Of a stretch of 64,000 nucleotides of DNA, positions 15,808-42,652 are shown one piece after another. Source of the DNA: Mycoplasmatota bacterium (GTDB lineage Bacteria > Bacillota_I > Bacilli_A > MAG-NZ); NCBI GenBank assembly GCA_018394315.1, contig CP074575.1:833501-897500 (forward strand). Direction: 5' to 3'. The position numbers were made by a program, and so were the translations under genes. Each line of letters opens with the position of its first letter. Position 1 is the first letter of the stretch. Under the pieces are notes generated by a model, which saw only the letters and a program-made list of their open reading frames with translations, did not search any database and was not told where the DNA came from.

Positions 15808-16287
15808 ATGAATATAAAAATAATATCAGTTGGGAAAATAAAAGAAAGATATTTAATTGACGCAATAAAGGAGTATTCAAAAAGGATAATGCCTTATGCG
15901 AAACTATCTTTCATAGAAGTGAAAGACGAACCAACAAAAGATAATGCTTCACCCAAAGATAATTTAAAGATAAAAGAAAAAGAAGCATTGAGAATATTAA
16001 ATCATATTGACTCAAGAGAATATGTTATAGCATTAGCAATTGAAGGGAAACAGTTAAATTCAATAGAACTAGCAAATAAAATAAAAGAATTACCCACTTA
16101 TGGTAACTCTAATATTGCTTTTATTATAGGAGGATCATTAGGGTTAGATAAAGAGATTCTAGATAGATCAAACTTTAAACTATCATTCTCCAAAATGACT
16201 TTCCCCCATCAATTAATGAAGGTAATACTTTTAGAGCAATTATACAGAGCATTTAGAATAAATAATAATGCGCCGTACCATAAATAG
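15808..16287 (+). CDS. rlmH: 23S rRNA (pseudouridine1915-N3)-methyltransferase RlmH
   Basis: RlmH (OrfX) methylates pseudouridine 1915 in helix 69 of 23S rRNA as a SPOUT-fold dimer. 159 residues, the family length. IISVGKIKERYLIDAIKEY at the start and the SAM-binding knot FIIGGSLGLD near 105-115 are clear, and the C-terminus NNNAPYHK holds the conserved tyrosine and basic end. In staphylococci the last codons of rlmH are the chromosomal att site for SCC elements. Here the last 18 bases (16270-16287), including the stop, recur as direct repeats downstream. The gene itself is intact. Confidence 0.97.
   Translation: MNIKIISVGKIKERYLIDAIKEYSKRIMPYAKLSFIEVKDEPTKDNASPKDNLKIKEKEALRILNHIDSREYVIALAIEGKQLNSIELANKIKELPTYGNSNIAFIIGGSLGLDKEILDRSNFKLSFSKMTFPHQLMKVILLEQLYRAFRINNNAPYHK
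16270..16287 (+). repeat. SCC-like att core A (chromosomal, 3' end of rlmH)
   Basis: GCGCCGTACCATAAATAG is the end of rlmH and the reference copy of the direct repeat. The staphylococcal SCC core is of the form GCxTATCATAAxTAA, as I recall it. Confidence 0.85.
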
Positions 16288-16334
16288 TTGCAACCTTTGA
16301 ACGAAAAATTCGTGCATTTAGAATTATCAATCGC

Positions 16335-16352
16335 GCGCCGTACCATAAATAA
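16335..16352 (+). repeat. SCC-like att core B
   Basis: GCGCCGTACCATAAATAA matches core A at 17 of 18 bases, exactly 65 bases downstream, outside any gene. Confidence 0.88.
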
Positions 16353-16399
16353 TAGCATCACATAAACAATATTTTCGGTCTTTTCAATTACAGGTGGAT

Positions 16400-16417
16400 G
16401 AACCATATCATAATAAT
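16400..16417 (+). repeat. SCC-like att core B' (degenerate)
   Basis: GAACCATATCATAATAAT shares CCATATCATAA with core F and lies exactly 65 bases after core B. Degenerate beyond that stretch. Confidence 0.55.
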
Positions 16418-16566
16418 GAAGTTGTAATAATATATTAATATTAAGAATCCACTTGTTTTAGTAAAAGAAATAGGAATGCAACCTTTAGTTGACACATTTC
16501 CAAGTCACGTTGGTGGTGTTCAACTGGATTTACGTATATCATTTTTATGAAAGAGAGGTACTGAAA

Positions 16567-17559
16567 ATGATTTTAGCTGACAAAATAATGTGTTTGAGAA
16601 AACAAAGAGGTTGGTCTCAAGAAGAACTTGCAAATAAGATGAATGTCTCAAGACAATCTGTTTCAAAGTGGGAGAGCGAGAGTGCTATACCTGAAATGGA
16701 CAAGATAGTGATGTTAAGTGAGATATTTAATGTATCAACAGATTATCTTTTAAAGGAAGATATGAAGGATGATTGCATTGAGAAACAAGAAATAATTCAA
16801 CCCCAGAAAGAGGCCGTAGTTTTGAGGAATTATGAAGTTGAATCGTACTTAGAAAGAGTAAAGAAAAATGCAAAATTAATTGCTTTAGGTGTTTCTTTAT
16901 GTATTTTAGGAGCAACTAGTCTTGTGTTTTTATCAGTAATTGGCGAAACTACCGTGCCCAGTATGTCTGAAGAGCTGGCATTGTCTATTGGATTAGTTGT
17001 GTTGTTTGTATTAGTTGCAATAGCTGTAGCATTATTTATAAAGGCAGGTTCTTTAATGAAACAGTTTGAGTATGTCGAAAGTAAAGAAGTTATTTTAAGT
17101 GGTGCAGATAAACAACATGTAAATGAACAAAAACAATATTATACAAGTAAATATCATTTTGGTATTACATTCGGTGTAGTATTAATGATTCTCGGAGTAT
17201 TACCATTGATAATTGGTAGTTTGTACGATATTTCGGTCTATAATTTGATTCTATTATTAACTTTACTCATGGTAATAGTTACCCTAGCTGTACATATAAT
17301 AATTCGAGTAAGTATTAGAAATGATGGGTACGAAACTCTACTGAATTTAGGAGAATATACGAAAGATAACAAACAGATAGAAAAAGTAACTGAGAAAATT
17401 GGAGGTGTTTATTGGCCAATTGTTGTGGCAATTTACTTATTCTGGAGTTTCTATACGAATGATTGGGGAACTACATGGATCGTGTGGCCTGTAGCGGGTG
17501 TACTATTCGCTGTTGTACCAGGAATAAGCTCGTTCTTGATAGATAAAAACAAAGATTAA
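16567..17559 (+). CDS. Membrane-anchored XRE-family transcriptional regulator
   Basis: 330 residues. N-terminal Cro/C1-type helix-turn-helix (about 1-65): LADKIMCLRKQRGWSQEELANKMNVSRQSVSKWESES is a textbook match (begins LADKIMCLRK). After a short linker there are about five hydrophobic segments (near 105-130, 140-165, 205-230, 232-255, 290-325), so it is a membrane-tethered repressor or sensor, a layout common in Bacillota. The signal it senses is unknown. Start chosen at ATG 16567 with AGAGAGG upstream; the frame runs on to 16489 without a ribosome site. First gene of the rlmH island, between cores B' and G, with no partner gene. Confidence 0.8.
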   Translation: MILADKIMCLRKQRGWSQEELANKMNVSRQSVSKWESESAIPEMDKIVMLSEIFNVSTDYLLKEDMKDDCIEKQEIIQPQKEAVVLRNYEVESYLERVKKNAKLIALGVSLCILGATSLVFLSVIGETTVPSMSEELALSIGLVVLFVLVAIAVALFIKAGSLMKQFEYVESKEVILSGADKQHVNEQKQYYTSKYHFGITFGVVLMILGVLPLIIGSLYDISVYNLILLLTLLMVIVTLAVHIIIRVSIRNDGYETLLNLGEYTKDNKQIEKVTEKIGGVYWPIVVAIYLFWSFYTNDWGTTWIVWPVAGVLFAVVPGISSFLIDKNKD

Positions 17560-17659
17560 ATTATGACAAATGTCATAATTTTTTAATTTGACAAAGTAAT
17601 AGCAACCAATTCAAGAATAAGCCTTACGAAGAGTATATCTCAGTTAAAAACGTAATAGA

Positions 17660-17784
17660 GAATGCTATCATAAAAAATTGTAAAACATGAGCTGAAATAT
17701 CGCTCATATAGAAAACTCACAGGGTGAATATTCACTCTGTTTTAATTGGAGGAAAAAAAAATGAAGGATATAAAGAATGTTTCA
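17660..17784 (+). repeat. SCC-like core G with conserved left arm (arm copy 1)
   Basis: The degenerate core (CTATCATAAAAAA, 17665-17677) is followed by a ~105-base arm that recurs at 32023-32134: it begins TTGTAAAACATGAGC, contains AAATATCGCT and a near-palindromic hairpin (GGGTGAATATTCACTC), then a ribosome site and the first codons of the next gene. Sharing of arm plus core marks the left end of one cassette type. Confidence 0.75.
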
Positions 17785-18341
17785 AAATTAATAATAGAAG
17801 CAATAGACTTGAATTTAATTGGGAGTAGTAACCCACTGACATTTCATTATTACGAGAATGATAACTTGTGGAATGACTTGCTTTCATTCGTAAATGATGA
17901 AGATATGATGAGGACGATGATTTTCAACAATGATAAGCTTGGGATATCTCCTGTACATACCTATTGTGCAACTTTGAACTGTAATGATAAGCTAAGAGAT
18001 TTTGAAAAAAATTCAATAGGACGCTTTTGGAAATTTGTTTTTGAAACACTGGGTTATAATAATACTAGAAGGGTATATAGGGTAAAATCAGCTATAACAA
18101 ACGGAAAACTATTCACTCAGTAAGCATTTATACAATTAACGGTGTTCAGAATATCCAAATCTGTATGAGACTAGATGATTATGAGAACTATGATTGTAAA
18201 GAAGAATTTACTGCTGAATCTTTGGAACAGCTCTCAAATGTTTTAACTGAAGTTAGGTTTCAACACAATATAAATTCTCTTGATGGGTTTACACCCGAGT
18301 ACATATTAAACATAGTTACATTTAGTCCTTTTTGTTGTTAG
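17761..18341 (+). pseudogene. Att-proximal conserved gene, probably frameshifted
   Basis: Unrecognised protein. The first frame gives 120 residues from ATG 17761 (GGAGG upstream), with FHYYENDNLW, LGISPVHTYC and DFEKNSIGRFWKFVFE. It stops at 18121-18123, but another frame continues across the stop to 18341 with sensible sequence (VSIYTINGVQNIQICMRLDD, then FTAESLEQLSNVLTEV). One extra A in the run at 18105-18108 would join them into one protein of about 193 residues. Homologous remnants lie after core E (32111, first codons only) and after core H (36917-37137, with the phrase ISPVHTFC). It therefore recurs next to att sites. A hairpin in the leader may attenuate it. No function proposed. Confidence 0.55.
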
Positions 18342-18729: not shown

Positions 18730-21700
18730 ATGGAAAGAAATACGTCTATAGTTGAGGCAATGATTATTAATGCTAGAAATCATTTGCTGGACACGTCTTT
18801 TAATAATAGGATGATAAACTCTAAAATTACCCAAAATAAGGGATTATCATTTAATGTTGAAAACTTGGATAAATTTTACGAACTAGTAGCCGGAAATAAC
18901 TCTTTTACTTTTCTTCCATTAGAAAACAAGAAGACTCCTGATTCTAATTTAACGTCAAGTGACAAAGTTAACTTTGAGTACAATAAGAATATTGAAAAGG
19001 TTGGAATTGTTGATGCTGTTTGTATTTTAGACACTACAAAAAAGCCTTCTATCCTTAGTCTGAAGTCGAGTATTGATGAGGGTGATTCAAAGTTAATGTA
19101 CAAAGTTAAAGGTGAAAGTGCATACATAGAATTAGTAGAAAAAATATATGAGGATATTAAAAAGAATTTTACTAAGTATGGTATTGATGAAGATAACGTA
19201 TATAACAAGGATATGTTATTTTCAGGTTTTAAAAAGAAAATTGAAAACGATATAGATAGTATAAAATTATCTCTTTATATTGCATTCTTAAGTATTCTTA
19301 AGAATGAGGGAATACCAAAGGACTATATATTTTTTGGTGGGATAAATAAAAAAAATGAGATTACTCAAGTTAGTAATCTAATTGATAAATTAATTTTTGC
19401 AGGTACTAAGGGGTTCAAGAAAGCTTTAGTTCCTAAGAAGAATAAAAAAGATATCGCAAATTTACCTTCTCAAGTCGCTGAAAATCTTGAAATTGTTTTT
19501 GTCTCTAATATAGATGAGGCAGTTTTATCTGTGTTTGATATGGTTAATTCTGTGGAACATAATGATTTAAGTAATGACTTTATATTGAATAAGAAAAATC
19601 AACCTCAAAAAATATTTTATGTAAATTATAATCAGGATGATTTAAGATCAAGAATGGAAGAAATTTATTTGAATAGTAAACGTCATATTGAGGAACAAGG
19701 AATAAATATCTTATTTCTTTCATTAGGATTTACGCAATGGAGAAGCCCAGTGAAACCAGAGGAGATTATTAACTCACCGTTAATTTTTATACCTGTGAAT
19801 ATTGAGATTAGTAACTATAAGAACATATATAAAATATCTTACTCTAATTCAGAAATAATTCTTAATAAGTCATTAATAAAAAAATTGGAACTTGAGTTTA
19901 ATATAAACTTTGATGAATTATTATTAGATGTTGTTGATGAACGTGACTTTGAAGTATCTAAATATATTGAAAAATTTATGAAAATTACTAGAGAGTCTGG
20001 GAACGATTTTGGAATGGATTCTTCCGCAGTTCACTTAAGTTTCTATTCATATAGTAAATTCTTAATGTATAACGATTTGGATCCAATAAATTGGGAGGAT
20101 GTTCTTCAAGGTGAAGAGGATAATGTATTAACTGATATTTTTGTTAATCATAAATATCACGAGGTAAGCGATGTAGATGATAAAAAATTAATAGATAGTA
20201 ATAGTGAAATAGATATGATAAACAATGTTCTTGATGCGGATTCATCACAACTACTAGCTATCTCTAAAGTAAATCGTGGGAACTCAATTATAATACAAGG
20301 ACCTCCAGGAACTGGTAAATCTCAAACAATTGTGAACTTGATTTCGGAGGGAATAATTCGAAATAAAAAAATCTTATTCATGAGCGAAAAACTTGCTGCG
20401 ATGGATGTTGTATATAGCCGATTAAGATCTCTGAATCTAAGTCACGTTGCATTACAACTTCATTCAGATAAGGTCAATAAATCGCAAGTAATTAACGAGC
20501 TGCAGAAAACATATTATATGAATAAAATAAACGTTAAGAATACGGATTATGATATCGTAAACAAATTAGATGATCTACGTCGAGAGATAAATAACTATTA
20601 TGAATTACTAAATAAAAAATCCTCGAAGTCTAAATTATCTATTGTAGAGGCTTATCGTTTAATCATTAAATTAGAAAATTACTTCAAAATTAACGACATT
20701 GATGTTTATAAACTTGACGTTCATAACGAGTATTTGATGGAGTCTAGCGAAGTTCAGTTTGATAATTTATTAAGTGATCTTGAATCGTTAGAGATTTTTT
20801 ATAACAAATATGGAACAATGAGTGATAATCCTTTAACAAGTATTTCAATTGAAAAGCCTTTATCACATCATGATATGAATAAATATAAAAGCCAAATTAA
20901 TGAGTTGATTAGTGAGCTTACTTCGGTTACTAATAAGATTGCAATTACTAAAGGGAATCAAACTATAATAGACGATTTATCGATATCAAACATTAAGAAG
21001 ATTTTGGCTGTAATAGAAGATCATTCTTCCTTATTAAATAACATTAACAATATTGATTATCCACTCCTAGCAGAAAATAGAGACTTGTTATACGATATTT
21101 TTATGAACTATTGGGATAGTTCAGAAATTAATAACTTAATAAAGAGCAATATATACAATAACTCTAGTGCTGTTGATGAATTGTTATCTTTATTAGAAGC
21201 AATATCTGAAGAAACAGAGTTTCTTAAAAGAAATAATAGTTTTTTAAAACGAAAAAGTCAAAACTTTAAAATACATAAAGATAAGATTGTTAGCAAATAT
21301 TTTAATAAAGATAATGTCAAACTAAGTGATATCGAGACTTCGCTTTCGTGGCTTTATAAAAAATTGTATGTCAAATATATGTTGATTAAAGAAGACGAGC
21401 TATTAAAGAATATTTTTGGTAAAAGAAGTAGAACTGATAACATTAAAATAATTGCTTCGTTATTTCAGTCTTTAGAAGAAATTGTTAAGTTCCTTGAAAA
21501 AGAGTTAAACTTTGAAAATGCTACAATTGAAACTTATTTCAAGTATTTAATGAATTTTGCAACAAATGATTTCAGTAACTTAAATAGTATAGTTGATATA
21601 ATAAACAATGTGACTGAATCACTTGGAATTGATTTGGAAAGTATATTCAGTTCAAATGAATTTATGACATTCAAAATAAGCGAAATAATCGGTGAGTTTG

Positions 21701-24045
21701 GCATTATCAGAGATGGTATGAATACACTTAATGATATTGTAGCCTTAAAAGAGATTAAGAATGGACTTGATGAGAATATTACTAATGAGTACTTGAGAGA
21801 AATCTTACAAAACGAACTATATTCTAAACATATTTCGAAAGTTTTTTCTTATATTAGATACAATAGTATAGTTCAGGAAATAATGAATTATAATTCTGAA
21901 CTAGAGAATTTTAATGCAATGGTTTTTGATCAAAAGATACGAGAGTTCATATATTTGGATAATAGAAATATCCAAGTGAACAATTTGCAAAATACATTGG
22001 ATGCTCATTTTTATAATGTTTACGATATAAGAAAAGATGAAACATTAAGCGTTGAAAATAAAGACGACATAATTAGCTATCTATTGCAAACTTTTAATAG
22101 AAAATACAATGTACCGACTGTAAAAGAATTATTAAAGAAAGCATTTAATCCAATAATTAAGTTGAAACCAGTTTTTATGATGTCACCAATTTCGGTTTCA
22201 CAGTATTTGGAGCCAATTGTCGGGATGTTCGATATTGTTATATTCGATGAAGCTTCACAGATAAAGCCACAGGATGCATTTGGTTCACTTTTGAGAGCCA
22301 AACAAGTTGTTGTTGTTGGAGATGAGAAACAACTTCCACCTACTAACTTTTTTGAGAGTTACTATGGTATAACAGATACGTTTGTTGAAGATGCAGTATC
22401 TAACTATGAAAGTATTCTAACTCTAATAAGAGGAACTGGGGTTCCACTTACCACTCTAAACTGGCACTACCGCAGTAAACACCATAATCTCATTGAAATA
22501 AGCAATAAACATTTTTATGGTGAAGAATTATCTATCTTCCCTTCTAAGTATAAGAGTAATCCGGATTTTGGAATTACATACGAATATGTAGATGGATCTT
22601 TTGATCGTGGAAAAAGTAGAACGAATTCACTTGAGGCAAGAAGAGTTGCCCAAGAAGTTATTAAACATGCAAGAAATAATCCGAACTTATCATTAGGTGT
22701 AGCGACGATAAACATTAACCAAAGGGATTTGATTTTGTCTGAGATTAAGAAAATGAGAGCAAAAGATCATTCGTTAGACGATTTCTTTAGTGAAGATAGG
22801 AATGAACCATTCTTCGTTAAAAACTTAGAAAGTGTTCAAGGGGATGAAAGAGAAGTTATCTTTGTTAGTATTGGATATGCTAAAGATCAAAATGGAAATA
22901 TTATTCAAAATTTTGGTGCTATTAACCATATAGGTGGGGAAAGAAGACTAAATGTTTTGATGACTAGATCAAGACAAAAATGTGTACTGTTCACGGGACT
23001 AAAAGCTGCTGACTTAGAGGTTGATTACAATACAGCAGAAGGGGTAAAGGTCCTTAAAAAATTTCTTGATTTTGCCGAGAGAACCTCAAGCAATATTGAA
23101 ACATATAAAACGAGCGATACGAAGGAATTTTCAATTGAGATTGCTGAGGAATTAAAAAAACATGGCTATAATGTTACCTTCAATGTAGGAAATTCACATT
23201 ACTTCGTTGATATAGCTGTCCATAATCCAAATGATGAATCTGAATATATTTTAGGAATTGAGTTTGATAACTCTACCTATATTCAATCTAGAACTGCAGG
23301 AGAGCGTGAAAGAATTAGAAATAATATTATGAGATCGAAGGGGTGGAATATATATAAGTTATATATCACTTCGTGGTTTAATAATAGAATAAAAGAAATT
23401 GATAACATTTTAGATTACTTATCTCAAATAGAAACTGAAAAGATCGACTATGGGGAAGTTGTTGAGTTTTATGAAGAACAGGTAAATGTAGCTACTAGAT
23501 TCGGATTCAGGCCATATAAGAAATTTGATAAAAGGATTGAGAACATTAAGAAGTTCGTTAAGGAACCAGTTCAAATTCAGAAATATGTCCTAGATCTTAT
23601 TACAGTAGAATCGCCAATCAGATTAAGTACAATAAATTCAAGAATATTAGAAAATTCTTACTTAGAAACTAAGGAGAAAGTATTCAACGGAAGTGTGAAA
23701 AAAGCTCTTTCCAAACTTCAAGAAAGTGGAGTTATCTATAAAGATGAGGGATTTTATTTCATCAGTGATAGATCTCAATTTATTCCTTTTAAAGATAGGA
23801 GAGCAATTGTTGGTTCTTTTACGTTGGAGGATGTACGTGAGGAAGAATATATTCATGCAATTAGAGAAATTACTAAAAACAGTTTTGGTATAGATACTGA
23901 AAATATTGCAACCATTATTTCAAATTATCTTGGATTTGATAACATTAACTTCGATATTCATGATAGAATCGAAAGACTTTCAATTAGATTGGTTAATTCT
24001 GAAACATTATTTATAGATAAGAACAACAATTTACAGCTTAGATAA
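18730..24045 (+). CDS. DUF4011-SF1 helicase-Vsr-like nuclease protein (probable anti-phage defence)
   Basis: 1771 residues. N-terminal DUF4011-like region (about 290-470: NILFLSLGFTQWRSPVKPEE). SF1 helicase: Walker A GPPGTGKSQTIV near 524-535; a long helical insertion (about 600-1130, coiled-coil-like); DEAS Walker B near 1173; GDEKQLPP near 1195; HYRSKHHNLI near 1245; ESVQGDERE near 1370; RLNVLMTRSRQK near 1408. Then a Vsr-like PD-(D/E)XK nuclease (about 1480-1560: FVDIAVHNP, LGIEFD, RSKGWNIYKLYITSWF) and a C-terminal DUF3320-like/winged segment (about 1600-1771). All helicase and nuclease motif residues look intact. Single-gene defence proteins with this order are known (I recall the name Hhe). 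Between island cores G and C, apparently monocistronic, ATG with GAGGTGG upstream. Confidence 0.82.
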   Translation: MERNTSIVEAMIINARNHLLDTSFNNRMINSKITQNKGLSFNVENLDKFYELVAGNNSFTFLPLENKKTPDSNLTSSDKVNFEYNKNIEKVGIVDAVCILDTTKKPSILSLKSSIDEGDSKLMYKVKGESAYIELVEKIYEDIKKNFTKYGIDEDNVYNKDMLFSGFKKKIENDIDSIKLSLYIAFLSILKNEGIPKDYIFFGGINKKNEITQVSNLIDKLIFAGTKGFKKALVPKKNKKDIANLPSQVAENLEIVFVSNIDEAVLSVFDMVNSVEHNDLSNDFILNKKNQPQKIFYVNYNQDDLRSRMEEIYLNSKRHIEEQGINILFLSLGFTQWRSPVKPEEIINSPLIFIPVNIEISNYKNIYKISYSNSEIILNKSLIKKLELEFNINFDELLLDVVDERDFEVSKYIEKFMKITRESGNDFGMDSSAVHLSFYSYSKFLMYNDLDPINWEDVLQGEEDNVLTDIFVNHKYHEVSDVDDKKLIDSNSEIDMINNVLDADSSQLLAISKVNRGNSIIIQGPPGTGKSQTIVNLISEGIIRNKKILFMSEKLAAMDVVYSRLRSLNLSHVALQLHSDKVNKSQVINELQKTYYMNKINVKNTDYDIVNKLDDLRREINNYYELLNKKSSKSKLSIVEAYRLIIKLENYFKINDIDVYKLDVHNEYLMESSEVQFDNLLSDLESLEIFYNKYGTMSDNPLTSISIEKPLSHHDMNKYKSQINELISELTSVTNKIAITKGNQTIIDDLSISNIKKILAVIEDHSSLLNNINNIDYPLLAENRDLLYDIFMNYWDSSEINNLIKSNIYNNSSAVDELLSLLEAISEETEFLKRNNSFLKRKSQNFKIHKDKIVSKYFNKDNVKLSDIETSLSWLYKKLYVKYMLIKEDELLKNIFGKRSRTDNIKIIASLFQSLEEIVKFLEKELNFENATIETYFKYLMNFATNDFSNLNSIVDIINNVTESLGIDLESIFSSNEFMTFKISEIIGEFGIIRDGMNTLNDIVALKEIKNGLDENITNEYLREILQNELYSKHISKVFSYIRYNSIVQEIMNYNSELENFNAMVFDQKIREFIYLDNRNIQVNNLQNTLDAHFYNVYDIRKDETLSVENKDDIISYLLQTFNRKYNVPTVKELLKKAFNPIIKLKPVFMMSPISVSQYLEPIVGMFDIVIFDEASQIKPQDAFGSLLRAKQVVVVGDEKQLPPTNFFESYYGITDTFVEDAVSNYESILTLIRGTGVPLTTLNWHYRSKHHNLIEISNKHFYGEELSIFPSKYKSNPDFGITYEYVDGSFDRGKSRTNSLEARRVAQEVIKHARNNPNLSLGVATININQRDLILSEIKKMRAKDHSLDDFFSEDRNEPFFVKNLESVQGDEREVIFVSIGYAKDQNGNIIQNFGAINHIGGERRLNVLMTRSRQKCVLFTGLKAADLEVDYNTAEGVKVLKKFLDFAERTSSNIETYKTSDTKEFSIEIAEELKKHGYNVTFNVGNSHYFVDIAVHNPNDESEYILGIEFDNSTYIQSRTAGERERIRNNIMRSKGWNIYKLYITSWFNNRIKEIDNILDYLSQIETEKIDYGEVVEFYEEQVNVATRFGFRPYKKFDKRIENIKKFVKEPVQIQKYVLDLITVESPIRLSTINSRILENSYLETKEKVFNGSVKKALSKLQESGVIYKDEGFYFISDRSQFIPFKDRRAIVGSFTLEDVREEEYIHAIREITKNSFGIDTENIATIISNYLGFDNINFDIHDRIERLSIRLVNSETLFIDKNNNLQLR

Positions 24046-24173: not shown

Positions 24174-24191
24174 GCGCCGTATCATAAATAA
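24174..24191 (+). repeat. SCC-like att core C
   Basis: GCGCCGTATCATAAATAA: one substitution (and the last base) from the rlmH end, and closest to the staphylococcal TATCATAA form. Preceded by AACGTTAC, the right-arm motif shared with cores D and E. Confidence 0.9.
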
Positions 24192-24239
24192 CAGCTTAAC
24201 TCTAATTGATAACGCGTAACACTACATCTAGATAATTTA

Positions 24240-26130: not shown

Positions 26131-26149
26131 GTAAAATATATAACATGTT

Positions 26150-33965: not shown

Positions 33966-34844
33966 ATGATTATTAAACAGAATGCTAAATCATTATTAAT
34001 AAAGAGTAATGGTATAGAGAGTGTGTTTGGAAATGACTTCTACATGAACATTTACAGAGGTTGTAGTCATAATTGTATTTACTGTGATTCGAGAAGTAGT
34101 TGTTATCGCGTAGAAAACTTCGATAAAGACGTCATTGTAAAAGATAATGCAGTTGAATTATTGGAGAAAGAATTAGTTAGCAAAAGAAAAAAAGGTGTAA
34201 TTAGTTTAAGTGGAGCAATGTCTGATTGTTATATGCATATTGAAAAGAAGCTTGAGTTAACTAGAGGTTGTTTAAATATACTAGATAAATATAATTATCC
34301 TGTAATGATACATACGAAAAGTGATTTGGTATTACGAGATATTGATATTTTAGAAAAAATAAACAATAAAACAAATGCAAATGTTTTGTTTACAATAACT
34401 ACAATTAATGATGAGCATGCTAGAATTATTGAACCTAATGCCCCATTACCAAGCAAGAGGTTTAAAGCATTAAAATCATTGAGTGATAAAGGAATTACCA
34501 CAGGAATTGCAATTTGGCCAATCATTCCTTTTATAACAGATCAAGAAAAAAATATTAACGAACTAATTAAGTATGCACATCTTGCGGGTTGTAAATATGT
34601 GATTTTTGGAGATGCGCTTACATTGAGAGGTAAGCAAAGAGAGTATTTTTATAAGAAGTTAGATGAAGCAGGGAGTGATTTAGCCAAAAAGTATAAACGA
34701 CTATATGGCGATAGTTATGTATGTAAATCAAAGAACATTGAAAAGATTAAAAAAATAATAAGAGATCTTTGTGAGGAATGTGGACTTGAGACTAAAGTTT
34801 CTTATTATCAGGTAAAAGAACCCAGCCAGATTAGTTTATTCTAA
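33966..34844 (+). CDS. Radical SAM protein of the SPL (spore photoproduct lyase/SplB-like) family
   Basis: About 292 residues. The radical SAM cluster is CSHNCIYCDSR (CX3CX2C spacing) near residue 30, binding a 4Fe-4S cluster and SAM. FYMNIYRGCSHNC and the later VFTITT/IEPNAPLPSKRFKALKSLSDKGI segment are typical of SPL-type DNA repair photolyase-like proteins; the latter motif fixes the subfamily. Spore photoproduct lyase itself is longer, so this is a relative of uncertain substrate. Start at ATG 33966 with TTGGGGAA upstream rather than TTG 33951. Confidence 0.75.
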   Translation: MIIKQNAKSLLIKSNGIESVFGNDFYMNIYRGCSHNCIYCDSRSSCYRVENFDKDVIVKDNAVELLEKELVSKRKKGVISLSGAMSDCYMHIEKKLELTRGCLNILDKYNYPVMIHTKSDLVLRDIDILEKINNKTNANVLFTITTINDEHARIIEPNAPLPSKRFKALKSLSDKGITTGIAIWPIIPFITDQEKNINELIKYAHLAGCKYVIFGDALTLRGKQREYFYKKLDEAGSDLAKKYKRLYGDSYVCKSKNIEKIKKIIRDLCEECGLETKVSYYQVKEPSQISLF

Positions 34845-34893
34845 ATTTGCGTTGAATTTTTGGATAAGGAGTATCAAGGGTTAAGAATACAAT

Positions 34894-34986
34894 TTGAATA
34901 CTGCTATGCCGTATTTTTTTATTTTAGATGACCCAGATGGTAATACACTTATAATTACAGGTGGACACGAGGAAAAATATAATTAA
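34894..34986 (+). pseudogene. C-terminal fragment of a VOC/glyoxalase-like gene
   Basis: Reads MPYFFILDDPDGNTLIITGG then a short tail and stop. FxxxDPDGNxxxI is the C-terminal signature of vicinal-oxygen-chelate proteins. No start or N-terminal module is present upstream. Confidence 0.65.
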
Positions 34987-35068
34987 TCTTAACTTTAAGG
35001 ATATACCATAAATGATTTCAACAATGATAGCTGAGCATAACTATAATACAGTACACTATGGAGGAAAA

Positions 35069-35929
35069 ATGAAAATTTTAGTTTTAGGAGGAACAAGATT
35101 TGTAGGTATTCATTTAGTAAATGAATTACTTAAGAAATCTTATGATATTACTATTGCTAATAGAGGAACAACAAAAGATGAGTTTGGCCATGAAGTTAAG
35201 AGAATTGTATTTGATAGGTATGATTCTAAAAGTATCAAAGATAAACTTACTGATCAATATGATGTTATTTATGACACATTAGCTTATGCATCAAATGATG
35301 TTAAAGTATTGCTTGATAATATTAAATGTAATAAATATATAATGGTATCATCTGCTGCTGTGTATGAAGATTATATAAATGTATCTGAAGATAAGTTTCA
35401 GCCAGAAAAAAACAAGTTAATATGGTGTAATCGTGGTGATTATAGTTATTCGAAAATCAAAAGACAAGCTGAGACAGCAATTTATCAAGAATATTCATCG
35501 GTAAATGCAATTACAGTTAGATATCCTTTTGTAGTAGGAAATGATGATTACACAAATCGATTAAAGTTTTATGTTGAGCACATAATAAATGGATTACCAA
35601 TGTATATTGATAACTTAAATGATCAATTGTGCTTTATTAGTTCAAATGAGTGTGGGAACGCATTAGCAGAACTAGCAAGTAAAAATTATGTTGGACCACT
35701 TAACTTTTCAAATAGTGGTGCAATTTCAATAAAAGAAATTATTAACTATATTGAAAGAAAAACAGGTAAGATAGCTGAATATGCAAAAAATGGGGACGCA
35801 GGACCTTATAATGGAAAGTATGTTAGTAGTCTGAATTTGTCAGAGTGTAATAAATTAAACATTGATTTTAGTGATGTAAGAGAATGGATATTTAATCTGT
35901 TAGATGAAATTATTGAGGAAGTAATTTAG
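35069..35929 (+). CDS. NAD-dependent epimerase/dehydratase family protein
   Basis: 286 residues, short-chain dehydrogenase/reductase (extended) fold. Dinucleotide-binding GGTRFVGIHLVNELL near residue 7; VIYDTLAYASNDVK; MVSSAAVYEDY as the Ser/catalytic region; and the YSKIKRQAE motif (Tyr-xxx-Lys active site) near 125-130. The substrate is unknown; close relatives act on nucleotide sugars or bind mRNA/NAD(P). Start ATG 35069 with GGAGGAAAA upstream rather than ATG 35012. Its last 20 codons and 60 following bases are repeated as a relic at 25799-25915. Confidence 0.78.
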   Translation: MKILVLGGTRFVGIHLVNELLKKSYDITIANRGTTKDEFGHEVKRIVFDRYDSKSIKDKLTDQYDVIYDTLAYASNDVKVLLDNIKCNKYIMVSSAAVYEDYINVSEDKFQPEKNKLIWCNRGDYSYSKIKRQAETAIYQEYSSVNAITVRYPFVVGNDDYTNRLKFYVEHIINGLPMYIDNLNDQLCFISSNECGNALAELASKNYVGPLNFSNSGAISIKEIINYIERKTGKIAEYAKNGDAGPYNGKYVSSLNLSECNKLNIDFSDVREWIFNLLDEIIEEVI

Positions 35930-36104
35930 TAACTGGTATACTGAAATTGCAATAGATATGATACAAATTAGGTCTAAGACGAGATTCAAGATGGATATTC
36001 AAGAAATTAAGAGCTTTGGGGTGAAAATTCGAGCCACCAGGTGGCGAATAGGCCTAGTTATCAGTAAATAAACAGGAGTAATACTATATTTGAAGGAGAA
36101 GTAA

Positions 36105-36677
36105 ATGATTATTTTAATTGGAGGAGCAAGTTGTACTGGGAAGACCTTAATGGCGAATAATTTAATGAAAAAGTATGCTATACCATATTTCTCACTGGAT
36201 TGGCTTAAAATGGGTCTCTATAGGAGTAATGGTGATATTAGATTTAACCCTAGTGACGATGATAAAAAGATAGAATCGTATTTAAGACCAATAGTTAGTG
36301 AGATGATTAAGACTTGTATTGAGAACAACCAAAGTTTAATTATTGAAGGTTGCTATATACTTCCATCAATATTAGATGATTTTGATGATGAGTACTTAAA
36401 TAAAATAATCTCAGTATTTCTTAACTTATCAGAGAATTACTTGATGAATAATTTTGAAGATGGAGTTATTAAAAATAGAAGTGTGATTGAATCTCGCAAC
36501 TATAAAGAAGATAGAGGTTGCAATGCTTTTGTAAAATTAAATAATGAACTTAGATTAGAGTGCGTGAAGTCCGATATAAATTTATTTGTGATAGACTCGA
36601 ATTATGAAGAAGAAATTATTGAGGTTTACAGTTATATAGAAAGAGAAATAAACAGAATTGAAAACGGAATGGATTAA
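36105..36677 (+). CDS. P-loop kinase-like protein
   Basis: 190 residues. Walker A GGASCTGKT at residues 5-13, with IIEGCYILP in the position of the Walker-B-like strand. It resembles small P-loop kinases such as 2-phosphoglycerate kinase-like and AAA_33 proteins, which phosphorylate small molecules or antibiotics. FSLDWLKMGLYRSN after the P-loop is where such kinases bind their substrate. The substrate is not known. ATG with AAGGAGAAG upstream; monocistronic. Confidence 0.6.
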   Translation: MIILIGGASCTGKTLMANNLMKKYAIPYFSLDWLKMGLYRSNGDIRFNPSDDDKKIESYLRPIVSEMIKTCIENNQSLIIEGCYILPSILDDFDDEYLNKIISVFLNLSENYLMNNFEDGVIKNRSVIESRNYKEDRGCNAFVKLNNELRLECVKSDINLFVIDSNYEEEIIEVYSYIEREINRIENGMD

Positions 36678-36780: not shown

Positions 36781-36798
36781 GTACAATAACATAAATAT
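36781..36798 (+). repeat. SCC-like att core H (degenerate)
   Basis: GTACAATAACATAAATAT; the upstream arm AAAATGTTATAACG differs from that of core D (AAAACGTTATAACG) by one base, which supports a decayed site. It is again followed by a remnant of the att-proximal gene. Confidence 0.5.
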
Positions 36799-37370: not shown

Positions 37371-38243
37371 ATGAATGTAATTGAGTTTAATAAATTAACC
37401 AAGTATTACGGTGATGTTAAGGGATGTAAAGATGTAGATTTTAATGTTAAGCAAGGAGAAATATTCGGATTCATTGGCCCAAATGGAGCCGGGAAAAGTA
37501 CTACAATTCGATCAATGCTATCTTTAATTTATCCTACTAGTGGTTCAGTTACTATATTCGGTAAAGATGCAATTGAGTTTGGTAGTGAGGTACGTAAAGA
37601 GATTGGTTATTTACCATCTGAAGTGTTCTACTATGACAAAATGAAAGTCATTGATTTACTAGAGTATTCAGCTAGCTTTTATGATAGGGATTGTACTGAT
37701 AGAATTAAAGAGTTAGCAGAGATAATGGAACTAAATCTTAATAGAAGAATCCAGGATTTATCTTACGGTAATAAGAAAAAAGTTGGAATTGTTCAAGGAT
37801 TACTGCATTCCCCAAAGTTACTTGTTTTAGATGAGCCAACTAGTGGATTGGATCCATTAATGCAGCAAAAGTTCTTCAAATTGATTGCTGAAGAAAATAA
37901 AAAGGGTGCAACAGTATTATTCAGTTCACATATCTTAAGTGAAGTTCAACAATTATGTGATAGAGTTGCGATTATTAAAGATGGTGAAATTGTAAGTGTT
38001 GAAGATGTTAAAGCATTACAACATGATAATTATAAAAAGTTCACAGTAAGAGGAACTGGGCTTAATAATGGTAGGTTCAATATTGATGGAGTGACACAAT
38101 TGGTTGAACGAGACGATAAAGTCAAATTTTTTTACAAAGGTGATATTAACAAAATTATTGAGATAGTTTCCAAATTAGTGCTTACCGATTTAGTAGTAGA
38201 AGAACCTACACTAGAAGAAATCTTTATGCACTATTATGAGTAG
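37371..38243 (+). CDS. ABC exporter, ATP-binding protein
   Basis: 290 residues, DRA/BcrA-type ATPase of an ABC-2 exporter. Walker A GPNGAGKSTT near 38-47, Q-loop IGYLPSEV, signature LSYGNKKKVGIVQGLL near 132 (with Y in place of the usual S-G-G), Walker B LLVLDEPTSGLDPLM near 152, switch His in FSSHILSEV near 186. A ~70-residue C-terminal extension ends EEPTLEEIFMHYYE, as in this class. Two permease genes follow at 8 and 9 bases, so all three form one transporter. Substrate (drug or lantibiotic-like) unknown. Confidence 0.9.
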   Translation: MNVIEFNKLTKYYGDVKGCKDVDFNVKQGEIFGFIGPNGAGKSTTIRSMLSLIYPTSGSVTIFGKDAIEFGSEVRKEIGYLPSEVFYYDKMKVIDLLEYSASFYDRDCTDRIKELAEIMELNLNRRIQDLSYGNKKKVGIVQGLLHSPKLLVLDEPTSGLDPLMQQKFFKLIAEENKKGATVLFSSHILSEVQQLCDRVAIIKDGEIVSVEDVKALQHDNYKKFTVRGTGLNNGRFNIDGVTQLVERDDKVKFFYKGDINKIIEIVSKLVLTDLVVEEPTLEEIFMHYYE

Positions 38244-38251
38244 GTGACTGT

Positions 38252-39055
38252 ATGAATATATATAAGTTTGAATTAAGAAATTTAAAGAAGTCTATCATGA
38301 TATGGGGACTAGCAGTACCCTTTGCCTTAGTAGGGTATATGTTATTCTATCCAATGATGTCGGGAGATACAGCGGCATTTGAAACTCTTATGGCGAATTT
38401 TCCTGAAGAATTTCTTGCAGCATTTGGTATGAATCCGAAACTACCTATTTTTAGTCTATTTGGGTATTTCTCATTAACCTTTGGGATGATTCAAATTCCT
38501 ATAGCAATCCAAGCATCAAACTATGGGTTTCATATCCTAAGTGTTGAAGAAAGGGAATTAACCGCAGATTTCTTGTTGAGTAAGCCGATTTCTAGAAGGA
38601 AAATATTCATATCGAAAATTATGGCGGCAGTTACTAGTTTAACTATTGTTAACATATTAGTATGGGTATCTTCGATTGCCGTTATTATGATCGTCAAGGG
38701 TGAGGAAGTAGTCGATTTGACGAATGTTAATATACTACTATCTACAACTGCACTTTTACAACTGACTTTCTTTGGAATTGGAATGGTTATCTCAGTATCA
38801 ATTAAAAAGGTATCAAGTGTGTTAACTTTCTCAATGGCTTTAGGATTTGGTCTTTACATAGTGGCATCGCTAGGTTCAATTTTAAGTTCTGGAATTTTCA
38901 AAATCATTTCACCATTTAGTCATTTTAATCCAGGTTTTATTTTAATAAACGGTAAATATGAGTGGAGTTTAGCGATTGTTTCTGTTATCGCGATTGTTGT
39001 TACTATACCACTGAGCTATTTCTTGTATAACAAAAGAAATATTGCTTCACTATAG
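38252..39055 (+). CDS. ABC-2 type exporter permease (first)
   Basis: 267 residues with six predicted membrane helices, in an arrangement typical of ABC-2 permeases: an N-terminal helix (MIWGLAVPFALVGYMLFY), a large external loop, then five helices to the C-terminus. The phrase ELTADFLLSKPISRRKIFISKI is the coupling motif seen in such permeases. GTG/ATG start with TAGGTGA upstream. It pairs with the next gene as a heterodimer, served by the preceding ATPase. Confidence 0.85.
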   Translation: MNIYKFELRNLKKSIMIWGLAVPFALVGYMLFYPMMSGDTAAFETLMANFPEEFLAAFGMNPKLPIFSLFGYFSLTFGMIQIPIAIQASNYGFHILSVEERELTADFLLSKPISRRKIFISKIMAAVTSLTIVNILVWVSSIAVIMIVKGEEVVDLTNVNILLSTTALLQLTFFGIGMVISVSIKKVSSVLTFSMALGFGLYIVASLGSILSSGIFKIISPFSHFNPGFILINGKYEWSLAIVSVIAIVVTIPLSYFLYNKRNIASL

Positions 39056-39064
39056 GGGGTAAAG

Positions 39065-39856
39065 ATGAATATTATTAAAAGAGAGTTAAAAGCGAACTTA
39101 AAGTCATTATTGTTTTGGATTATTCCTTTAGGAGCAGTGATGTATGCTGCGTCAGTAGAATTTAATGCCTTTGCTGGAGATTCAGCGATAGCGGATGCGA
39201 TGAAGCAATTTGAGTTTATGTTTAAAGCACTTGGAAGTTCTGTTGCTGATATGACAAAACCTGAAGGGTTTATATCAATTGTTTCTTTGTATATTTATTT
39301 ACCATTAGCGATATATTCAGGTTTATTAGGTAGTGGAATAGTTTCTAAAGAAGAAAAAGATAAAACTGCAGAATATTTGTTTACATTACCTGTTAAGAGA
39401 TATGAAGTGATAAGAGCTAAATTGATTGTAGCAGTTGTATATTCAATGGTGATTAATTTAGCAATTGTGGGTACAGTGTATTTGACTTATTTAAGATTTG
39501 AAGTTAGCGATGGATATTTTAGGTTTATGTCTAATATGTCACTAGGTGTATTCCTAACACAGCTAATTTTCCTGGGAATTGGTATGCTAATATCATCTGT
39601 TCTGAAGCAGTATAAAAAATCTGGTTCAATTACAATTGGTTTATTAATGGGAACATTTATGTTATCGATATTAATTGGAATGGTCGATGGTAAATTGGAT
39701 TTCTTGAAGTTTGTTGTACCGTTTCAGTATTTCCCATCTGCTGATATGCTTGCAGGAACGTTTAATTTTGGATACGTAATCATAACATTGGTCGTAACGC
39801 TAATTTCAGTTGTGGGAACATTCTATTTCTATAAGAATAGAGATTTACATATTTAA
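39065..39856 (+). CDS. ABC-2 type exporter permease (second)
   Basis: 263 residues, homologous in layout to the preceding permease: N-terminal helix (LLFWIIPLGAVMYAASVEF), an external loop, SKEEKDKTAEYLFTLPVKRYEVIRAKL as cytoplasmic coupling motif, then five helices. Last gene of the exporter operon; a terminator hairpin lies at 39865-39897. Confidence 0.85.
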   Translation: MNIIKRELKANLKSLLFWIIPLGAVMYAASVEFNAFAGDSAIADAMKQFEFMFKALGSSVADMTKPEGFISIVSLYIYLPLAIYSGLLGSGIVSKEEKDKTAEYLFTLPVKRYEVIRAKLIVAVVYSMVINLAIVGTVYLTYLRFEVSDGYFRFMSNMSLGVFLTQLIFLGIGMLISSVLKQYKKSGSITIGLLMGTFMLSILIGMVDGKLDFLKFVVPFQYFPSADMLAGTFNFGYVIITLVVTLISVVGTFYFYKNRDLHI

Positions 39857-39864
39857 CTATTAAG

Positions 39865-39897
39865 AGGAAGTGTTCCAAGTGAATTACTTCCTTTTCT
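39865..39897 (+). terminator. Terminator after the ABC exporter operon
   Basis: Stem AGGAAGT / ACTTCCT-like (GGAAGT with ACTTCC) followed by TTTTCT. Confidence 0.65.
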
Positions 39898-40377
39898 AAT
39901 AAATACTTATACTTATTAAATAATTTTAGTTTGAGTCAATAGAAAATCTGATGAGATTTATCTACAGGTATATTTCCAAAATAAATAATCCCTGAGATTT
40001 AGATTTAAGGGATTTGAAGCTAGGGGATTTTTTTAAAGAATCGATATGTGTAGAAAACGTGGTATGTGGACAATAGACCTAGAAAGAAGGGAACTATGAA
40101 GAAGATATCAGTATTATTACATATTACTTTGAGTGGATATAATTTAACTGAGACGTTAGTGTCATACATTAGAAAGCGAATTGGAAAAATATAATGATTT
40201 GTTGATATCTATAAGGTGTATTATTAATAGTGGTACTGCGAGTCTTAGTCAAAAATCAATTAACGAGTTGATATAGTTTAAGATAATGAATGTAATTTAG
40301 AAAAAAGAATAACGAGCATTATTAGAAATTACTGCGTATTAACGAATTTTATTTAGTATGGAAGAATGGGTGAAAAA
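39898..40377 (+). other. Gene-poor stretch with small hairpin and a doubtful 32-codon ORF
   Basis: ATCCCT / AGGGAT pairs at 39988-40014. A 32-codon ORF at 40096-40194 (AGAAGGGA upstream; begins MKKISVLLHITLSG) could be a real small peptide or a relic; I would not annotate it as a gene. Otherwise nothing recognisable. Confidence 0.4.
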
Positions 40378-40968
40378 ATGAAATATAAATATTTGGTAGT
40401 TTTTCTCATGTTTTTAGTATCAACTGTATCTCTTAGGGCAGATACAGTTAAGTATCCATATGATGAAATAGTCATTTTGCGTGCTTATACATTTAAAGTT
40501 TCTGAGGACACCGCTGAGACTAATGGGAATAATTTTTTACTCGAACTGGTTCATGAAGATAATCCTATTATCGAGGTGAAAGTAGCAAGTTTTAATTTGT
40601 ATACAGATGGTAAATTATCTGTAGGTGATGAAAGCATCATCATTGTTTCAGGAACAAACGGAACGATAAGATTCTTAAACAATGGATATTCAAAACACGA
40701 CGTTTTAGATGACTCTGATAAAGTCATTGGCTATATTGAAGAGTATCAGTTCTGGAATCACAAAATTTTAACTGATACTGGTGTAGTAAAGAGTAAAGAC
40801 ATGGATACAAAGGAATTGACTATAGTTTATGATTCTTTAAGCGAGACTTATACTCTGGAATCTTACGATGAAGAAACAAATGAGAGTACGAGTTCGGATT
40901 TTCTTGAAGAATCCTTCAAGGAAATTATTGATGAGTTTACATTTGTGTTTAATAATGAGGAGGAGTGA
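40378..40968 (+). CDS. Secreted protein of unknown function
   Basis: 196 residues. N-terminal signal peptide (YLVVFLMFLVSTVSLRADT) with a likely signal peptidase I site after LRA; no lipobox. The mature part is beta-rich (KYPYDEIVILRAYTFKVSED, VGDESIIIVSGTNGTIRF) and acidic, without Cys. I do not recognise the family. Start at ATG 40378, with GGGTG 6 bases upstream, rather than ATG 40366. A small lipoprotein gene follows 2 bases later with AGGAGG, so the two are co-expressed. Possibly surface-exposed. Confidence 0.55.
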   Translation: MKYKYLVVFLMFLVSTVSLRADTVKYPYDEIVILRAYTFKVSEDTAETNGNNFLLELVHEDNPIIEVKVASFNLYTDGKLSVGDESIIIVSGTNGTIRFLNNGYSKHDVLDDSDKVIGYIEEYQFWNHKILTDTGVVKSKDMDTKELTIVYDSLSETYTLESYDEETNESTSSDFLEESFKEIIDEFTFVFNNEEE

Positions 40969-40970
40969 TC

Positions 40971-41144
40971 ATGAAAAAAATTGTCATTATATTGTTGTTG
41001 ACTATGGTATTAGCTCTTGCTGGGTGTACAGATGAAATTAGTAAGAACAATGCTGAAACTGTTATTGAAGTTGAAGAAATATACAACGGAGATATGCTTG
41101 TAGTTATTGAAAACGCAATAGATCAAATTTTAAGCAATAATTAA
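40971..41144 (+). CDS. Small lipoprotein (57 residues)
   Basis: A short gene with ATG 7 bases after GAGGAGGAGTGA. Signal peptide with lipobox ALAGC (Cys 19), then a 38-residue acidic, helical-looking mature part (NAETVIEVEEIYNGD, VVIENAIDQIL). Downstream partner of the preceding secreted protein, two bases from its stop. Function unknown. Confidence 0.7.
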   Translation: MKKIVIILLLTMVLALAGCTDEISKNNAETVIEVEEIYNGDMLVVIENAIDQILSNN

Positions 41145-41238
41145 GCAAATTAGAGAATTATTTATAGCTCCTAAGAAATCATGATTTACATCAGGATAAA
41201 CTTTCAGAATGTAAATCAAAACAATCCAGAATCAGAAT

Positions 41239-41376
41239 ATGAGTGAGTATTTAGGTTATAGTGTTCTTGAAGAAGGAAATAAATCAGATTCTATACTACT
41301 CACTATGGGAGTAGATGATGTTGATGAATACTATAACACTCTATGTGGTAAAGGTGTTGATTTCACTTCATTATAA
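41239..41376 (+). pseudogene. Fragment of a VOC/glyoxalase-like gene
   Basis: A 45-codon stretch reading EYLGYSVLEEGN and GVDDVDEYYNTLCGKGVDFTS, then a stop. VDDVDxxYxxLxxKGVxFTS is the central part of VOC-family proteins. Its natural C-terminus would look like the 34894 fragment (FFILDDPDGNT), so the two may be split pieces of one gene family. Confidence 0.55.
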
Positions 41377-41566
41377 GGGTTTTCTTTCTTTATGCATCCC
41401 ACATCCATTTTACTCCATCCCAGTTGTGTCGAATTTGGTCGAATGAAATTGAGTGTGATAGGATGACATGTAGAAAAGTGTGATATTGTGACACATATGT
41501 CCATTTTTGAGATGATTTTGTAATAAAATAGTATTAAATAAGGGAGAAAAAATTTAGCAATATTAT

Positions 41567-41732
41567 ATTGAATCATTAGCGGATATTGTTTGATGTGAAT
41601 GGATAGGCTTTTAAGTTGCTTTGCTGCAGATTGGTTATCACCTGGCAATTTAGTGATTATCAGGAATGTCGAAGGTAAATATGCAGAAGATCTATTTATT
41701 ATAAAGGGAATTAAAGCTTTTACCACACGAGG
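41567..41732 (+). pseudogene. Second copy of the fragment at 25608-25798
   Basis: Shares its base sequence with the 25.6-kb copy but with different deletions. The longest frame reads AADWLSPGNLVIIRNVEGKY, then EDLFIIKGIKAFTTRG. Not recognised. Confidence 0.4.
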
Positions 41733-41767
41733 CATTAGTAAAATACAAGAGTGAAAGGAAGAAGATT

Positions 41768-42535
41768 ATGAAAGAGTATAGTGTATTGATTATGTATTCA
41801 AAAGAATTGGATAGAGATGTTAAAGTATATGTTTCGTTACCGAAAAGTTACTTTGAAACAGATAAATATTATCCAGTGTTGTACATGCATGATGGACAAA
41901 TCCTGTTTAATGACTTTGAAGATCATAATGGTAAGAGTTGGGGGATAATGGAAAGTTATAAAAATAATCCAAACTTACCCGAACTAATACTTGTAGGAAT
42001 AGCTTCTGGTGACACAAGAAATGATGAGCTATTACCAGTTTCTATTGATAATAATAATGGTAAATTCATCGGGGGAAAAGCAAACGACTATATGGATTTT
42101 ATTGTTAATAAATTAAAACCTGTAATTAATAAGAAATATAGAACTCTTAAATCATCAGAAAATACAGGAATATTGGGGGTTTCTCTTGGAGGAGTGTGTT
42201 CAACATATGCAGCAACTAATTATTCCGAACACTTCACAATATTTGGGTGTGTATCAAACGCATATATTCCTATACGAAAAGACATGATAGAGATAATAAA
42301 AAAATCAGATTTATCGAGAGTTAAAAAGATGTATTTAGATGTGGGAACAAAAGAATCTGAAAATGAAAAAGGTAGAATTGCATATCTAGAGTCTAATAAG
42401 GAAGTATTTGATGTTTTAAAAGAAAAACTCGGTTCAGAAAGGATAAAATTTGAAGTAATTAAAGATGCCCAACACATTGTAGCGGATTGGGAAAAAAGAT
42501 TTCCAAATATAATTTCATATCTATTTAAAGGATAA
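41768..42535 (+). CDS. Alpha/beta-hydrolase esterase (esterase D/Fes family)
   Basis: 255 residues, putative-esterase family (pfam00756-like). YPVLYMHDGQILFND near 37 is the family start, and GVSLGGVCS near 140 holds the nucleophile Ser (G-x-S-x-G). Asp in YLDVGTKES (about 198) and His in DAQHIVADW (about 240) complete the triad. No signal peptide, so cytosolic. Such enzymes hydrolyse siderophore esters, acyl-thioesters or carbohydrate esters; the substrate here is unknown. ATG with AAAGGAAGAAG upstream; monocistronic, just before att core F. Confidence 0.75.
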   Translation: MKEYSVLIMYSKELDRDVKVYVSLPKSYFETDKYYPVLYMHDGQILFNDFEDHNGKSWGIMESYKNNPNLPELILVGIASGDTRNDELLPVSIDNNNGKFIGGKANDYMDFIVNKLKPVINKKYRTLKSSENTGILGVSLGGVCSTYAATNYSEHFTIFGCVSNAYIPIRKDMIEIIKKSDLSRVKKMYLDVGTKESENEKGRIAYLESNKEVFDVLKEKLGSERIKFEVIKDAQHIVADWEKRFPNIISYLFKG

Positions 42536-42634
42536 AAACATAATAACAATACAAATTGTAAGTCAGTAATATGAATGAAAGCAAGGAAGATTATTGAACT
42601 GCACATATTATGTTGCGACTTAAAAAGTTATGAT

Positions 42635-42652
42635 GAGCCATATCATAAATAA
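42635..42652 (+). repeat. SCC-like att core F
   Basis: GAGCCATATCATAAATAA followed by TTGTAAAAC and AAATATCGCTC, a shortened form of the left arm at cores G and E. The upstream arm is decayed (GTTGCGACTTAAAAAGTTA against GTTGCACCTGAAAACGTTA). TTATGAT (42627-42633) with ATCATAA (42642-42648) forms an inverted repeat. Confidence 0.85.

Follow-up and report, generated by a model that had tools for sequence, protein, structure and literature searches.

How can accessory genes come to be stacked behind one chromosomal gene in a genome that yields no match to a serine recombinase? This question is raised by a stretch of 64,000 nt (the window) from a Mycoplasmatota bacterium (contig CP074575.1; G000:C1:833501-897500 in our numbering), whose genome is a single contig of 2,165,257 bases. 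In the window, the 3′ end of rlmH, the insertion place of staphylococcal cassette chromosome (SCC) elements, recurs as direct repeats between which accessory genes lie. We consider it probable that the locus consists of small mobile cassettes in tandem, inserted successively at the 3′ end of rlmH by a large serine recombinase of the Ccr type that acted in trans.

Probable attachment sites and cargo behind rlmH

The repeats resemble attachment (att) sites, as judged from their sequence. The candidate sites are listed below together with rlmH; identities refer to the 18-base rlmH end and ranks to the left-arm model described further on.

15808–16287, + strand: rlmH, by open reading frame (ORF) call; the first att site has its core in the final 18 bases of the gene
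16270–16287, + strand: att core 1, the rlmH end; rlmH half-site on the left, cassette left-end arm TTGCAACC on the right
16335–16352, + strand: att core 2, 17 of 18 identical, 65 bp past core 1
17660–17677, + strand: degenerate att site, both arms recognisable, left arm ranked 72nd
24174–24191, + strand: att core, 16 of 18, left arm 36th
25490–25507, + strand: att core, 15 of 18, left arm 2nd; homology to the related genome G001 stops at 25508
25956–25973, + strand: degenerate att site, core 13 of 18, left arm 5th; missed in the original prediction
32011–32028, + strand: att core, 16 of 18, arms on both sides, left arm 7th
36781–36798, + strand: weak att-like site, uncertain, left arm 1108th
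42635–42652, + strand: att core, 14 of 18, left arm 31st; followed by a further left-end arm

The original prediction, made from the sequence alone, had named copies of the rlmH end at 16335, 24174, 25490, 32011 and 42635, all on one strand, between genes and with common flanking arms. Our analysis bears this out: the copies are identical at 14–17 of 18 positions, lie on the + strand outside accepted genes, and share arms that comparison within the window confirms as real. The six cores, that of rlmH included, each differ by at most two mismatches from the consensus GCGCCGTATCATAAATAA. In 100 first-order Markov simulations with the dinucleotide make-up of the window, matches averaged 0 at ≤2 mismatches and 0.04 at ≤3, with a consensus that had been picked from these same sites. 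A search of the whole 2.17 Mb returned eight matches at ≤3 mismatches (one for a control pattern), and all six at ≤2 mismatches are on the + strand of the rlmH region. None of the eight downstream sites, weak ones counted, falls inside an accepted gene, though these genes, which we selected from the ORF list, span 77% of the stretch. By type, the core is TACCATAA at 16270 and 16335 and TATCATAA at 24174, 25490, 32011 and 42635. Two features of SCC elements are present in the window: insertion at the 3′ end of rlmH and direct repeats with a TATCATAA-type core at the borders.

To assess the arms, we modelled the 28 bases on the left side of the core from nine right-end sites of G014, G036 and G047, genomes of another family of the class, and scored all 127,946 positions that the two strands of the window offer. 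The reverse strand of the cores at 16270 and 32011 takes ranks 1 and 6, so that both ends of a site are inversely alike. The rlmH core and the core at 16335 have another kind of left arm and receive no score in this model. The att site of a G014 cassette aligns to 31971–32026 (79% over 56 bases), and the arms at 17660 have their likeness within the window (67 nt are 82% identical to 31998–32064; 17666–17801 is 86% identical to 32017–32147). Among the weaker copies proposed originally, that at 17660 stands on its arms and that at 36781 stays weak; the copy at 16400 was discarded, with a left arm ranking 33,053rd of 127,946 when tested as a core at 16405.

The intervals 24174–25490 and 25956–32011 have well supported sites at both ends, two intervals between cores are remnants of 65 bp and 466 bp, and the predicted maximum of seven cassettes is best taken as an upper guess. 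The proposed island end at 42652 does not hold: a new left-end arm follows the core at 42635, and no right end was seen beyond it within the window. Further on, at 43478–43634, lies a relic stretch with copies at C1:374455-374616 (81%) and C1:1263623-1263770 (72%).

In the mechanism that we propose, each cassette would exist as a circle with one att site, composed of a right-end arm (about GTTGCAnCTnAAAAnGTTAC), an rlmH-like core and a left-end arm. Recombination between the circle and the rlmH end would place the cassette behind rlmH and rebuild the core at both borders, which would leave cores between the cassettes. We infer the circles, the action in trans, the place of the crossover and past activity at this locus.

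The cargo of the array comprises 20 accepted genes, all on the + strand; a 134-aa ORF on the − strand (41331–41735), which overlaps none of them, was left out.

16573–17559, + strand: HTH_3 regulator with a membrane part (longest ORF from 16489)
18730–24045, + strand: DUF4011/SF1 helicase/MTES_1575 protein of 1771 aa, of the PDC-S37/Hhe/ProA anti-phage kind, scoring under the NCBIfam cut-offs
24240–24434, + strand: relic of 64 codons and a stop, probably from a large serine recombinase, adjoining the GNAT gene
24548–25462, + strand: GNAT acetyltransferase; its G001 homologue lies directly at rlmH
25795–25913, + strand: relic of a second epimerase 3′ end, 92% identical to 35867–35985
26139–26325, + strand: T-box leader before proBAC
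26533–29370, + strand: proB, proA and proC
29482–29739, + strand: T-box leader before an ABC transporter
29813–31899, + strand: ABC transporter of the amino-acid type; a model identifies the ATPase, and the binding protein and permease were recognised by eye
32267–36677, + strand: lipoprotein-like protein (by eye), 146-aa protein without family, radical SAM protein, epimerase and a weak AAA_18 match
37371–42535, + strand: ABC transporter, with an ATPase identified by model and two membrane proteins recognised by eye; 200-aa protein; esterase

Rows of cassettes and exchanged stretches in other genomes

We searched the order to which the Izemoplasma-type genome G014 belongs, represented by 81 genomes, with the pattern GAGCCGTAYCAYAARTR at ≤1 mismatch and obtained 152 matches in 45 of them, rlmH ends counted, compared with 8 for the reversed control (both sums are our own). 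RlmH matches were found in 57 of 60 genomes. In at least nine of the 81 genomes (G014, G036, G047, G061, G063, G067, G082, G094 and G125), rlmH is followed by further cores on the same contig and strand, and G120 may be a tenth. The nine rows contain 26 intervals, of which 24 measure 0.5–5.8 kb and the others 8.1 and 11.0 kb, the last (in G063) enclosing two more att-like stretches. No serine recombinase was detected at E 0.01 in these nine loci, each covered for 11–19 kb downstream of rlmH. Several intervals in the four arrays with ORFs listed contain a single gene, and 30 of the 35 kept ORFs share one orientation. Defence genes were recognised in G036 (L032, G036:C5), where three of the four intervals at rlmH carry a recognisable set: (i) Thoeris, with ThsA and two ThsB; (ii) Gabija and one further gene; and (iii) an AriA-like ATPase, a DUF4435 protein and two further genes. 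In G014 the cargo includes a methyltransferase of type I, beside which HsdS- and HsdR-like genes were recognised by eye. Cores of this order start with GA, those of the window mostly with GC.

As outgroups we examined named rlmH loci, the best 80 of more, mainly from Clostridia, bifidobacteria and Bacillales, over ≤10 kb downstream. A second core, repeating the locus's own rlmH end, was present in 12 of the 25 assigned by title to Bacillales and in none of the other 55 (reversed control, 1 of 80). In several of the 12 the arms (about AATGAGGTTTTT) differ from those of the window.

Genomes that share cargo were compared. In G001, a genome of the same genus that is 55% complete, the GNAT gene stands directly behind rlmH on contig C98. 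A core comes after it, and further on, at the contig end, the anti-phage gene begins. GNAT precedes the anti-phage gene there, the reverse of the order in the window. The shared GNAT stretch (24562–25508 of the window, 81% identical) ends at the end of the core; identity is 91% in the anti-phage stretch and 76% in the rlmH region. A second case concerns G067 and G061, whose rlmH regions are 71% identical, with two stretches of 93% identity that stand in opposite order and end 19 and 33 bases past a core:

L208 8137–8876 and 11875–12892; L209 9268–10005 and 7233–8250: stretches of the toxin-antitoxin type shared by G067 and G061, with a ParE-type toxin and with a nucleotidyltransferase beside a HepT-type protein

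In these comparisons the exchanged stretches stop at or near a core and exceed the rlmH region in identity. In G002, of the same family as the window's genome, the only core found is the one at rlmH, with none further at ≤4 mismatches in the 18.6 kb examined downstream; this outcome favours the original prediction.

A Ccr-like recombinase away from rlmH

No match to PF00239 or PF07508 was found in the whole genome G000, in line with the predicted lack of an intact recombinase, and G001–G003 gave none to PF07508. The SCC feature of carrying ccrA/ccrB or ccrC is absent from G000, where there is only the short probable relic at 24240–24434. This relic resembles the middle of large serine recombinases; its top match is the recombinase of G047 (E 0.001), followed by those of G012, Tumebacillus, G020 and G042, in a comparison with translated loci, many of them recombinase loci. 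Its placement also draws on a recombinase-only set, and such a choice of sequences favours a recombinase answer. Pfam, PDB and plasmid searches with it returned no informative match. Ten PF00589 matches indicate tyrosine recombinases in G000; none lies in the window, and the six of these ten loci that were examined contain no rlmH-type core. A tyrosine integrase beside the array, as in integrons, was not found by PF00589 in the window, no IntI-specific model having been run. The recombinase is, we think, probably absent from G000 today, its gene having come and gone and left at most the relic by the GNAT gene.

The search for ccr genes that had been suggested, empty in G000, succeeded among the relatives. 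PF07508 matches occur in 27 of the 81 genomes, and part of these recombinase loci was examined. CcrB/CcrC-like orthologues are present in four of the 81, namely G047 (C1:1193026-1194612), G097 (73%), G065 (66%) and, as a partial copy, G133 (73%), in every case away from rlmH. Among 95 recombinases, their nearest relatives are the rlmH-borne ones of Bacillus kwashiorkori, Alkalihalobacterium chitinilyticum and Tumebacillus flagellatus (34–39%). NCBIfam models, run on three of the four orthologues (G047, G097 and G065), gave 303–310 bits for CcrB, 297–302 for CcrC, 151–157 for XisF and 95–98 for CcrA; the Ccr models are the best match over other serine recombinases, and the equivalog cut-off of 900 bits is not reached. 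By these scores, the three proteins qualify as Ccr homologues, not as equivalogs. A tree of 59 sequences places them in a cluster of nine rows (97/91) with four rlmH-located sequences from three named Bacillales and two others. In three named Bacillales (L147, L158 and L123), a CcrB-like frame on the opposite strand runs towards rlmH and reaches its 3′ end. The serine recombinases of G036 (C12, beside toxin-like tips recognised by eye), G025 (C4) and G014 were set aside as the cognate enzyme: these four proteins reach 91–131 bits with CcrB and fall in other parts of the tree.

The recombinase gene has kept its neighbours in G047, G097 and G065 (a protein of 94–103 aa, an SSB-type protein, a 126-aa protein and a RadC-type protein), and in two genomes it lies inside an element that ends at cores. 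The element of G097 (C31:14985-39571) lies between cores 24.6 kb apart and that of G065 (C20:82599-103397) between cores 20.8 kb apart, and they share a second type of end on the left (about CCTAGAAGAATACGGAATATAGC) and also on the right (TTCCCCTAACTGCGATAAACT). In the second-type left end CCTAGAAGAATACGGAATATAGC the rlmH-type core is kept (L195, L212, L214, L216, L217, L219, L226, L254 and L038). The idea that a recombinase gene begins at these left ends was dropped, as different genes follow the ten sites that were read. The left border of the G065 element matches the RlmH model at residues 136–159, that of G097 only partially. For the ccr element of G047, a search up to 1224000 at ≤3 mismatches found no right end.

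Half-sites of the rlmH type also occur elsewhere, four in G014 and one each in G025, G036, G047 and G000, and some of them hold cassettes. The site in G000 is at a GNAT gene behind tRNA-His, in a second island of this genome (8500–13026 of L001, G000:C1:257000-276999). There the GNAT gene has an rlmH-type core on either side (8522 and 9444), and the last 22 tRNA bases are repeated, without change at 9540 and at 12809 with 4 mismatches. Likeness to rlmH at the ectopic sites is limited to about 20–40 bases and the frame is often broken or changed, so they look like half-sites of a recombinase rather than gene copies. Apart from the ccr module and one gene pair, no gene neighbourhood common to the ectopic sites was found (G047, G065, G097 and G014; >35% identity). 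The original prediction took scatter of the repeats away from rlmH as a sign of dispersed repeats. In G000, repeats at ≤2 mismatches are confined to rlmH, in favour of its att-site reading; rlmH-type half-sites do lie elsewhere, once in G000 and in several relatives.

Explanations and relation to known systems

Several observations weigh against an array of mobile cassettes served in trans. With no recombinase acting here now, its function has to be inferred from another family. Among the nine genomes with rows, the Ccr orthologue was found only in G047 in the loci examined, and G014 and G067, single contigs with rows, have other serine recombinases only; family f20 (seven genomes) has no core match at all. 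Several cassette borders are degenerate sites only, the arm model gives ranks 3 and 4 to unrelated places, and the relic is short and without Pfam match. The symmetry test found no strong palindromes at the sites, and dyad symmetry is weak (8–11 of 23 at the six sites with a right-end arm and 4 at rlmH; mean 6.5, sd 2.2), with the best offset at 0 for 25956, 32011 and 42635. The GNAT homology with G001 leaves out the first 371 bases of the window's cassette, with the relic; in G001 the second core and the anti-phage gene have no core that was seen between them; and a third stretch shared by G067 and G061 (76%) lies beyond the last core of G067. Precise excision and insertion are suggested indirectly, by the reordered stretches that end at or near a core.

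The same locus could be a degraded composite SCC-like island, in which ccr-bearing elements piled up at rlmH and deletions then removed their recombinases, leaving the small intervals as remnants rather than mobile units. The probable relic at 24240–24434 and the 65-bp and 466-bp remnants between cores fit this history, and composites with multiple repeats are known from Bacilli and staphylococci (PMC10061031). Such decay accounts poorly, however, for the absence of a serine recombinase match from all 26 intervals of nine relatives, 24 of them 0.5–5.8 kb long, for the several one-gene intervals, for two stretches that are 93% identical between species in changed order, and for Thoeris and Gabija in separate intervals of G036. 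We regard it as rather unlikely.

Shuffling by homologous recombination between the att repeats, or by a tyrosine recombinase of the genome, would require no Ccr enzyme, and G000 offers ten tyrosine-recombinase matches and none for a serine recombinase. The shared sites are, however, short and diverged, a Ccr-like gene sits inside the core-ended elements of G097 and G065, no core lies in the six tyrosine-recombinase loci examined, and the window has no PF00589 match; this route appears improbable. Simple dispersed or tandem repeats of the REP or MITE kind, without site-specific recombination, would also be short and degenerate and could place half-sites away from rlmH. This possibility, already weakened by G002, which lacks the repeats, was rejected and keeps hardly any weight, given that the six copies at ≤2 mismatches all lie at rlmH on one strand, that the arms are common to another family and that a shared stretch ends at the core. 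Successive insertion of small cassettes by a Ccr-type recombinase in trans is the explanation that we prefer; the predicted SCC-like strategy at the rlmH end is supported, the checks being mostly in its favour.

Action in trans has a precedent. According to work cited in PMC10581047, CcrDE excises and transfers SCC from rlmH without co-moving, is encoded at rimL and acts on a GA central dinucleotide. Islands at rlmH outside staphylococci had been published before (PMC6222049, PMC10061031 and PMC10581047), the last of which reports them for further genera. Such islands and a Ccr acting from another locus are already known. The small recombinase-free cassettes and their hosts look like a variant not described before; a limited literature search found nothing linking Izemoplasma-type bacteria with cassette chromosomes and no title fitting an integron-like reading.

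SCC elements spread methicillin resistance in staphylococci, and these findings bear on the question of their origin. Izemoplasma-type bacteria and a related family join the hosts of rlmH cassette islands, and there too cassettes and recombinase can live apart. Two cultured relatives make the movement of small cassettes testable, and a simple rule, the search for rlmH-type cores behind rlmH, leads to defence and metabolic cassettes that have no recombinase as a signpost.

In chromosomal integrons, cassettes of one gene each follow a single fixed platform, most of them pointing the same way and with toxin-antitoxin cargo among them; the sites are attC and the enzyme is IntI. The arrays described here share the cassette row behind a fixed platform, the prevailing orientation and, in relatives, the toxin-antitoxin cargo, but have rlmH-type sites and a serine recombinase in place of attC and IntI. 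We put forward, tentatively and at somewhat less than even chances, a serine-recombinase counterpart of the chromosomal integron. Cassettes of one gene or one system, each with a single att site, would land at rlmH as their fixed platform. A Ccr homologue, whose own element occupies an ectopic half-site of the rlmH type, would move them in trans, and Izemoplasma-type bacteria and the window's family would in this way have defence, toxin-antitoxin and metabolic genes in common.

With SCC, composite and pseudo-SCC elements, the array has in common the last rlmH codons, direct repeats with a TATCATAA-type core, tandem stacking and defence cargo; unlike them, it has no ccr in array or genome, and its units measure about 0.5–11 kb, often with one gene or system. 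The CcrDE islands of staphylococci (PMC10581047) are alike in that a distant ccr element moves the rlmH SCC in trans and in the GA centre, but sit in rimL with other repeats, whereas the distant Ccr elements of the relatives have rlmH-type cores. ECC of Enterococcus faecium (PMC6222049) likewise uses the rlmH 3′ end, the core TATCATAA and direct repeats, with inverted repeats in attR and in the circle, but carries ccrAB and an average of 42 ORFs. The Pol-SSB islands of Bacilli at rlmH (PMC10061031), which have large serine recombinases and genetic-conflict cargo, have a second end that is recognised by the last ~12 bp of rlmH and build multi-repeat composites; they contain recombinase, helicase and Pol-SSB genes, in contrast to the cargo-only array, and the SSB- and RadC-type genes are found in the relatives' Ccr element. 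The array is SCC-like in its working but not a strict member of the class, because the ccr genes that were looked for are absent, and the most fitting name is a ccr-less, SCC-like row of small cassettes. It belongs to a family of rows whose likely recombinase resides in a separate element of a few relatives.

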